DNA of 33,620 nucleotides from Chloroflexi bacterium HGW-Chloroflexi-8 (GTDB taxonomy: Bacteria; Chloroflexota; Anaerolineae; Anaerolineales; Anaerolineaceae), in NCBI GenBank assembly GCA_002841995.1, contig PHBS01000022.1, forward strand, positions 1 to 33,620, given 5' to 3'. A model generated the notes under the pieces. The model was not told the origin of the DNA. It did no database searches and saw only the letters and a program-made list of their open reading frames with translations. Of the stretch, positions 24,839-26,508 are shown piece by piece. Made by a program: the position numbers and the translations under genes. How positions within the stretch are numbered: position 1 is the stretch's first letter; each line of letters opens with the position of its first letter.

Positions 24839-26425
24839 ATGAGCGAAGTATCTCTAAGTCCATTTTTTTGGGCAGTTGTAAGCTTGTTCGGAATACTTGC
24901 TGCGACAGCAGCAGTCAATACAAAATATGGAAAAAAATATCGGTGGTTCGGAATTGTTTCGGTTGGACTTTTTACAATCGGAAGACTGATTATGGTTTTG
25001 CCTATCATTCCACAACCCAGATTCCAGGCAGAAACATGGCTCTTTGTGATGGCAATTCTTTTTGGGATAGCTGCTTTTATTTTTCTTTATCCTGGACTTA
25101 AGTATCAACCTATCGTGATTTCTCAACAGAATTTTAAGTTAAGAACTGATGGCCTTTTTAGTATTGTAAGGCACCCAGTTTATTTGGGGGAAATTTTCTT
25201 ATCAATTTCTATATCACTCTTTTTTCGATCCATAATCGGTATTTTCTTTGTACCGATCTGGTGGGCTGCTTTCACGTTGCATATCATTCATGAAGAAGAA
25301 AGGATGGAAATAGAAATTGGCCCTTTTTATCTAGAATATAAAAACCATGTACGCGGCCGAATTATTCCAATTCCTCCATTTGATCTTTCAAATTCATACT
25401 CCAAGTACCCGTTCAAAAACCTCGTCTTCAAGGGAGGTGGAGTTAAAGGAACTGCTTATCTGGGTGTAATAAAAGCACTTCATGAAAACGGAATTCTCAA
25501 CCAAATTGAAAGAGTAGCAGGTTCCTCTGCTGGTGCAATTACAGCGACATTACTCAGCTTCAACAAGGACGTGGAAACGACCTATTCAATGATGGATTCG
25601 CTGAATTATCAAATGGTTCCGGCATTAAAAAGCGATTTAGATTCAAACGAACCAACCTGGTTACCCAAATTTATAGGTAAAGAAGTAGTGAAATTATCAT
25701 CAGACGTTGAAGCTGTACAAAGACTGGTCTCAAAATATGGTTGGTATTCAAGTGAATATTTCTATAATTGGCTAAAAAATGTAATTTCTGAAAATTGTAA
25801 TGGAAATCCAATGGCAACTTTTGCGGACTTTAAAAAATGCGGGTACAAAGATCTTTATATTATCACGACGAATTTATCCGGATTAGAAGTAACAGTTTTT
25901 TCCAATGAAAAAACACCTCATATTCCTGTTGCAAATGCAGTAAGGATGTCAATGTCAATTCCTTTGTTTTTTGAATCGATTCAATTTGATGGAAATCAAA
26001 CGAATAAAGGAGATATCCATATTGATGGTGGGGTGATGCTCAATTACCCTATTCACTTGTTTGATGATAGTAAATATTCTCAAGGGAATTTGTGGTATCG
26101 AAATGAAATCAATTGGGAGACCTTAGGATTTTACCTCTATACTCATACCGATAATATTTCCACAAATCCACAAATTAATAATTTTAAGGATTATGTGTCT
26201 CATTTATACGAATGCTACAATATCAGTATGCAATTAAACGAAATCGACAACAATCATATTGATAAACAAAGATCTGTCATAATAGATACTTTGGATATAC
26301 AGGCAACAGAATTTGACTTAACACCTTCTGATGATCGATATCAAAAATTGATCGAACAAGGATATACAGCAACCAGTCAGTATTTGCACAATTACCGTCA
26401 TCCCACAACCAAAATTATTTGGTAA
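24839..26425 (+). CDS. Fusion: isoprenylcysteine methyltransferase-like membrane domain + patatin-like phospholipase
   Basis: The 528-residue protein joins two families. Residues 1-180 are a multi-helix membrane domain (helices about 8-26, 36-56, 66-86, 118-145). It has RHPVYLGE (111-118) and EEERMEIEIGPFYLEYKNHVR (152-172), the SAM-binding signature of isoprenylcysteine carboxyl methyltransferases and related phospholipid methyltransferases. Residues about 192-400 are a patatin domain: oxyanion loop GGGVKG (199-204), nucleophile Ser230 in GSSAG (228-232), and Asp396 in DGG (396-398). The last 130 residues are unassigned. The patatin catalytic dyad is complete. The fusion suggests a membrane-anchored lipid hydrolase with lipid or prenyl methylation. 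The SD GGGGAG (24828-24833) supports the ATG. Confidence 0.88.
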   Translation: MSEVSLSPFFWAVVSLFGILAATAAVNTKYGKKYRWFGIVSVGLFTIGRLIMVLPIIPQPRFQAETWLFVMAILFGIAAFIFLYPGLKYQPIVISQQNFKLRTDGLFSIVRHPVYLGEIFLSISISLFFRSIIGIFFVPIWWAAFTLHIIHEEERMEIEIGPFYLEYKNHVRGRIIPIPPFDLSNSYSKYPFKNLVFKGGGVKGTAYLGVIKALHENGILNQIERVAGSSAGAITATLLSFNKDVETTYSMMDSLNYQMVPALKSDLDSNEPTWLPKFIGKEVVKLSSDVEAVQRLVSKYGWYSSEYFYNWLKNVISENCNGNPMATFADFKKCGYKDLYIITTNLSGLEVTVFSNEKTPHIPVANAVRMSMSIPLFFESIQFDGNQTNKGDIHIDGGVMLNYPIHLFDDSKYSQGNLWYRNEINWETLGFYLYTHTDNISTNPQINNFKDYVSHLYECYNISMQLNEIDNNHIDKQRSVIIDTLDIQATEFDLTPSDDRYQKLIEQGYTATSQYLHNYRHPTTKIIW

Positions 26426-26435
26426 AAATATATTG

Positions 26436-26508
26436 AGCCACCGATGGGAGTCGGACCCATGACCTGGCGTTTACGAAACGTCTGCTCTGCCAACTGAGCT
26501 ACGGTGGC
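26436..26508 (-). tRNA. tRNA-Thr (anticodon CGT)
   Basis: The acceptor stem is GCCACCG/CGGTGGC with discriminator T. The D-arm is GCTC-AGTTGGCA-GAGC. Anticodon loop TTCGTAA gives CGT, which reads ACG. Two positions are odd: the anticodon stem GACGT/ACGCC has an A28-C42 mismatch, and the T-loop is TCCGACT, with C where nearly all tRNAs have U55. Other conserved positions look normal. CCA is not encoded. It is convergent with the fusion gene and divergent from the glycosyltransferase. Confidence 0.9.

Follow-up and report, generated by a model that had tools for sequence, protein, structure and literature searches.

According to the report on RhlM (PMC11069360), the functions of bacterial ICMT-family proteins were unexplored before that enzyme, which is responsible for rhamnolipid carboxyl methylation and which its authors call the first characterized bacterial representative of its class; it is a stand-alone enzyme of rhamnolipid operons, and in a docked model its E162 and H122 contact SAM. 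Solved structures of the ICMT family include Ma-ICMT (4a2n) and the eukaryotic entries 5vg9 and 5v7p. Patatin-type acyl hydrolases, such as VipD, ExoU, and PlpD, form a separate family with three motifs, GGGxR/KG, GxSxG, and DGG/DGA. A pairing of ICMT and patatin in one protein was not found in the literature searched, most subscription journals lying outside that search; where passages name both, they are distinct genes or distinct Pfam families.

When analyzing a 33,620-nucleotide stretch of Chloroflexi bacterium HGW-Chloroflexi-8 (contig PHBS01000022.1, here called the window), we found both families encoded in one frame. The features are as follows, with residues numbered in the encoded protein.

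24839..26425, plus strand: ICMT-patatin fusion gene, a single open frame of 528 codons plus stop, with fused homologues in 12 other genomes
24839..25378, plus strand: predicted five-helix ICMT-type membrane domain, residues 1-180 (PF04140; fold match to 5vg9 and 4a2n; profile match to 4a2n)
25169..25177, plus strand: RHP motif, residues 111-113, with H112 at the aligned position of the RHP His in 4a2n and 5vg9; conservation
25292..25297, plus strand: EE pair, residues 152-153, aligned with the EE of 4a2n and 5vg9; conservation
25379..25405, plus strand: variable linker, residues 181-189, with 21.1% mean pairwise identity among 12 fused members and no invariant residue
25406..26407, plus strand: patatin domain, residues 190-523 (PF01734; structural matches; stand-alone homologues covering about 185-523)
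25433..25450, plus strand: oxyanion-hole motif GGGVKG, residues 199-204, by motif and conservation
25520..25534, plus strand: nucleophile motif GSSAG, residues 228-232, with Ser230 in 13 of 13 fused rows covering it
26024..26032, plus strand: DGG, residues 396-398, with Asp396 present in all 13 fused rows covering it

The gene starts with ATG, and a GGGGAG stretch lies about 5 bases upstream of it. The initial annotation had described one uninterrupted frame with one good start, an ICMT signature in RHPVYLGE (residues 111-118) and EEERMEIEIGPFYLEYKNHVR (residues 152-172), and a complete patatin dyad at residues 199-204, 228-232, and 396-398; all of its motif positions were right, and Pfam recognizes both halves.

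The patatin half matched PF01734 over residues 195-408 with 102.1 bits (cut-off, 27.7; 5.8e-29), a match beyond chance, and all three patatin motifs are present and kept in the 13 fused rows that cover them. A single-sequence PDB search found ExoU, VipD, and PlpD as the best matches to this half. We modeled the full-length protein with AlphaFold2 from 46 aligned rows (mean pLDDT, 89.4; pTM, 0.83). In the predicted model, residues 163-528 resembled VipD (Z 26.9, rmsd 2.9, 249 aligned), residues 191-522 PlpD (Z 25.2, rmsd 3.1, 252 aligned), and residues 191-519 plant patatin (Z 23.6, rmsd 3.7, 278 aligned). With Z scores of 23.6 to 26.9 to plant patatin, PlpD, CapE, and VipD, the modeled half would have the patatin fold and, from the motifs, a Ser-Asp dyad. 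These likenesses to VipD, ExoU, and PlpD compare patatin domains alone, whereas the window patatin is joined to a membrane domain of the methyltransferase type. The C-terminal 130 residues, for which the initial annotation could name no match, belong to the end of the patatin unit, because the last aligned residue of the structural matches falls at 519 to 528 and most patatins of this clade that stand alone align with the profile from about 185 to 523. Four such patatins (L020, L021, L050, and L015) are 36 to 43% identical to the window protein and share its C-terminal part but lack the ICMT half. A new domain at the C terminus was therefore rejected. The highest NCBIfam score went to the Dot/Icm effector VpdC, and membership was rejected at 80.7 bits, far under the cut-off of 1000. 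In a viral-library fold search, the leading matches were patatins of viruses. An Adhaeribacter relative of the patatin half (L016, 5923-6978) begins with a hydrophobic segment resembling, by eye, a signal peptide, so the location of the patatin unit may differ in other phyla.

For the N-terminal half, PF04140 (ICMT) matched residues 86-155 with 30.8 bits (cut-off, 24; 4.2e-7), again beyond chance. The initial annotation had proposed searches with PF01734, PF04140, PF04191, and PF06966; beside the first two, both above their cut-offs, PF04191 (PEMT, phospholipid methyltransferase) fell marginally short at 24.8 bits against 25 and PF06966 scored 11.6 bits against 20.4. Matches to the Pfam families ERG4/ERG24, Steroid_dh, and DUF1295 were all below cut-off, as was that to the protein-S-isoprenylcysteine O-methyltransferase equivalog NF040696 (29.8 bits against 160). 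A PHROGs search returned families of unknown function only, one of which matches the ICMT half.

Residues 76-177 matched 4a2n in a single-sequence PDB search (E 6.3e-4), and a profile of 21 ICMT halves (alignment A3) found 4a2n at 3.9e-21 and 5vg9 at 2.7e-14, with the RHP and EE motifs aligned with theirs. This profile combines 12 fused rows (the window's among them), one fused row cut by a contig end, and 8 non-fused relatives, so it tests the ICMT family and not the fused proteins alone. Residues 41-178 of the full-length predicted model resembled 5vg9 (Z 11.5, rmsd 2.9, 137 aligned), and residues 34-178 resembled 4a2n (Z 11.2, rmsd 3.0, 144 aligned). Folded alone (pLDDT, 90.6; pTM, 0.85), the half matched 5vg9 (Z 11.4), 4a2n (11.2), and 5v7p (10.3), and outside the ICMTs the sterol reductase 4quv (10.0), 8xku_G (9.1), and two steroid reductases (8.7 and 8.1); a clear gap separates these seven top entries from the other chains, which begin at Z 5.1. 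In the full-length predicted model, the likeness to ICMTs spans residues 31-178 at Z 10.6 to 11.5, and a Z of about 11 is short of the value of about 13 advised by the alignment tool for helical bundles. With Foldseek alone, the ICMT half had no match at an E value of 0.001 or better, and VIA-align lists Foldseek-ranked chains only, which leaves room for an unlisted fold family. Since the seven top entries are set off from the rest and the sequence profile agrees, the half is predicted to have an ICMT-type fold with membrane helices, differing from the known family in being fused to a lipase and in the loss of the motif His from some fused members. The ICMT-like fold alone would not fix the chemistry, as its neighbors include sterol and steroid reductases.

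The initial annotation had taken SAM binding by this domain as a point on which its reading could fail. Binding is plausible for the window protein, which matches ICMTs in predicted fold and in its RHP and EE motifs and has His and Glu residues of the SAM-contact kind, as does RhlM, a bacterial member of the family compared here by its published description rather than by direct alignment. It is less secure for the fused family as a whole, because the His and Glu are not in every relative and the same fold includes reductases.

Positively charged stretches of membrane proteins lie on the cytosolic side. Among 12 members, the stretches predicted inside carry 2 to 4 (residues 28-35), 3 to 7 (90-112), and 4 to 8 (161-192) Lys plus Arg residues, and those predicted outside carry 0 to 1 (1-7), 1 (54-65), and 0 to 1 (129-131). 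From this distribution and the positive-inside rule, the N terminus would lie outside and the SAM-site half and the patatin in the cytosol. Both predicted active sites would thus face the cytosolic side, answering at the level of charge distribution the initial annotation's question of whether they share a membrane side. The loop LPIIPQPRF (residues 54-62; window 24998-25024), predicted outside, carries R61, an Arg that does not vary among the 12 fused rows of alignment A1 and is shared by at least 90% of the 21 rows of A3.

We investigated the distribution of the fusion in overlapping genome samples of increasing rank. In the family sample, fused frames were found in 12 of 147 genomes (G000-G007, G011, G019, G020, and G034), among them all 8 listed members of the genus, and 105 genomes had no match. 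Nine further genomes had the patatin alone, one of them (G155) with a contig that begins just before the patatin, so that the upstream part is invisible. The ICMT alone was seen in one genome (G036), and the fused genomes G002 and G005 also carry a solo patatin. The order sample gave 12 of 400 genomes, eleven of the family set and G311, which belongs to another family; contig ends truncate both of its frames, L079 and L080, the latter just after its patatin part begins. In the class (1 of 396) and phylum (1 of 400) samples, the only fused genome was that of the window; partial frames in three genomes of the class sample (G985, G895, and G1122) are too short to tell fused from solo. The co-occurrence count that the initial annotation had called for therefore stands at 13 genomes, the window's included, of two families and six genera, all within one order in the samples searched; the genome counts are lower bounds, since the profile searches scored three candidates per genome. 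Among 72,556 plasmids, 16 records matched and none had one place covering 80% of the query, and among 50,697 phage records there was a single one, with a partial patatin match. A scan of genome contigs, with patterns that reach close relatives only, found 2 loci, neither a fusion. Twenty viral contig loci (L096-L115) carry related stand-alone patatins, and their matches all start at residue 173 or later. The stand-alone ICMT of G036 (L019, 6857-7399) belongs to the fused subfamily, and its 14-kb locus holds no other open frame of at least 100 amino acids matching the fusion profile.

Phylogenetic analysis placed 36 patatin rows, 23 solo and 13 fused, in one supported clade. The patatin and ICMT trees each need four changes between fused and solo labels, of which well-supported branches force one in the patatin tree and two in the ICMT tree, where the contig-cut L080 was labeled solo.

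We favor, with middling confidence, a membrane-anchored lipid enzyme of two activities, in which the patatin would deacylate a membrane lipid and the ICMT half would methylate a lipid, perhaps at a carboxylate. Both activities are predictions from motifs and folds. An ICMT-type five-helix domain would sit in the membrane with its SAM-site half toward the cytosol, and the short variable linker would tether to it a VipD/PlpD-type acyl hydrolase whose Ser230/Asp396 dyad would cut acyl chains off a membrane lipid. The ICMT half would move a methyl group from SAM onto a lipid reached through the membrane. Characterized ICMT-family enzymes methylate carboxylates, and for this reason the most likely acceptor would be a lipid carboxylate, the simplest candidate being a fatty acid freed by the adjacent patatin. 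Which lipid would accept the methyl group, and whether product would pass from one site to the other, is guesswork on our part.

The PEMT matches leave other acceptors open. In alignment A2, at E values up to 0.01, PF04191 matches 22 of the 46 rows, which are all 22 with an ICMT-type part, and PF04140 matches only 17 of these, so family membership does not settle which class of acceptor is used. The two activities could then work on the same membrane uncoupled or opposed, as in PEMT- or LmtA-like N- or O-methylation of a headgroup beside acyl removal, or in a methyl ester that one half would write and the other cleave. The near miss of PF04191 on the window protein fits such a scheme, as does a sub-threshold NCBIfam match to LmtA, named lipid A Kdo2 1-phosphate O-methyltransferase (23.6 bits against 325). 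However, the ICMT model outscores the PEMT model on the window protein, and nothing points to a particular headgroup or to a methyl ester substrate for the patatin half. We regard this arrangement as rather unlikely; it overlaps the two-activity reading that we favor, so the chances given to the two do not add up to one.

The ICMT-type domain might instead be a mere membrane anchor or lipid-binding platform whose methyltransferase activity is lost or irrelevant. At position 112, the 14 fused rows have His in 10, Asn in 3 (L012 and the two rows of genome G311, L079 and L080), and Tyr in 1 (L018). Gly 117 of RHPxYxG is found in 11 of them and replaced by Ala in L018, L079, and L080. L018, the G019 member, has lost the SAM-contact-type His, one Glu, and the motif Gly, yet its patatin motifs are intact. 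Anchoring would also accommodate the existence of stand-alone patatins of the same clade, and a related domain occurs in AtTam46 (8xku_G), a chain of the solved plant Ycf2-FtsHi motor complex. Over 12 rows, moreover, mean pairwise identity is 39.9% for residues 1-89 and 49.6% for 90-180, against 59.9% for the patatin core (190-410), with 21.1% in the linker and 43.7% for 411-523, so the ICMT half is the more variable. Against mere anchoring, R111 and P113 are invariant across the 21 rows of the ICMT-half alignment, and E152 (Val in L006) and E153 (Ala in L018) are each kept in 13 of the 14 fused rows. RNP also occurs in the stand-alone ICMT relative L019, so Asn at 112 need not mean lost function.

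Purifying selection acts on both halves. By the Nei-Gojobori method, dN/dS in the three closest pairs (L008, L009, and L011) is 0.04 to 0.15 along the protein, at 0.086 to 0.125 for residues 1-85, 0.036 to 0.076 for 86-180, 0.057 to 0.070 for 190-410, and 0.074 to 0.147 for 411-520, the last probably raised by L011, whose C terminus runs into a tRNA-Thr gene. Four other pairs had high or saturated dS and, where ratios could be formed, values of 0.079 to 0.292. That residues 86-180 are about as constrained as the patatin core in the closest pairs speaks against a domain kept as an anchor. The degraded site in G019 and the Asn for His in three rows make anchoring alone a serious rival all the same, although on balance we think it unlikely.

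A narrower version of the two-activity reading would make the protein a converter of lipid to methyl ester, in which a fatty acid freed by the patatin at the cytosolic face would be methylated in the membrane by the ICMT half, giving fatty acid methyl esters directly from phospholipid. Supply of the carboxylate by the patatin would be, at a guess, the simplest reason for the joining. The degraded methyltransferase site in G019, the uninformative neighbors, and the solo forms of both halves speak against such supply, and we consider the converter improbable.

Gene neighborhoods were of little use, being largely conserved within the genus only and giving no pointer to a lipid pathway. In the window, the divergent gene upstream of the fusion gene is of the uridine kinase type (PF00485, Pfam); its listed open frame overlaps the fusion gene start, but if it began at a later Met, the one aligned with where its relatives start, a short gap would separate the two genes. 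Downstream of the fusion gene lie a tRNA-Thr (26435-26508, minus strand) and a glycosyltransferase gene. Of 8 genus genomes compared, 7 (window, L087-L089, and L093-L095) have the fusion gene between uridine kinase-type and glycosyltransferase genes, and all 8 have the tRNA-Thr next to it. In the five further genomes compared (L090-L092, L018, and L079/L080) only two neighbor types are shared, a glycosyltransferase-like one at L018 and an ABC-ATPase-like one common to L092 and L079, both named by eye. Pfam gave mixed functions for seven genes near stand-alone ICMT relatives (three at L082, two at L083, and two at L019), namely SCO1/SenC, methyltransferase, glycosyltransferase, ABC transporter, alcohol dehydrogenase, LysM, and PF04072 types. 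The PF04072 gene, of the leucine carboxyl methyltransferase type, adjoins L019, which we take as chance. At L011 (1396-2997, G001), homology to the fused proteins stops at about residue 500, and the last 34 residues overlap or follow the neighboring tRNA-Thr gene (1438-1511); loss of a short segment between the gene and the tRNA would account for the altered C terminus.

A membrane-disrupting defense effector, with a CBASS-like patatin phospholipase and the ICMT part as its tether, is very improbable. The patatin half weakly matches PADLOC phospholipase effector models (best, 9.3e-10), its predicted fold matches CapE (Z 25.6) and CapV (Z 23.9), and the adjacent glycosyltransferase matches PF20706, named GT4-conflict, although general glycosyltransferase models score higher. 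However, the scores for the CBASS phospholipase effector NF041079 (13.8 against 200) and, in NCBIfam, the antiphage phospholipase DS2_1 (24.9 against 400) are far under their cut-offs, Pfam shows no cyclase among the three window neighbors, and the gene order is kept within the genus as described above. An assembly or sequencing artifact joining two genes, which the initial annotation had named as a possible undoing of its reading, was rejected: nothing was found in its support beyond the draft state of the assembly (256 contigs), and independent fused homologues, 11 of them aligned and 34 to 58% identical to the window protein, occur in the 12 other genomes, and dN/dS shows purifying selection in the closest pairs.

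The fusion is real, conserved, and lineage-restricted, and it joins two known families. The attached lipase hints at the substrate class of the methyltransferase, a lipid on the membrane's cytosolic face, and the fusion offers a defined protein for probing what one group of orphan membrane methyltransferases uses as acceptor. If the two steps were coupled, a single enzyme would turn membrane lipid into methyl esters.
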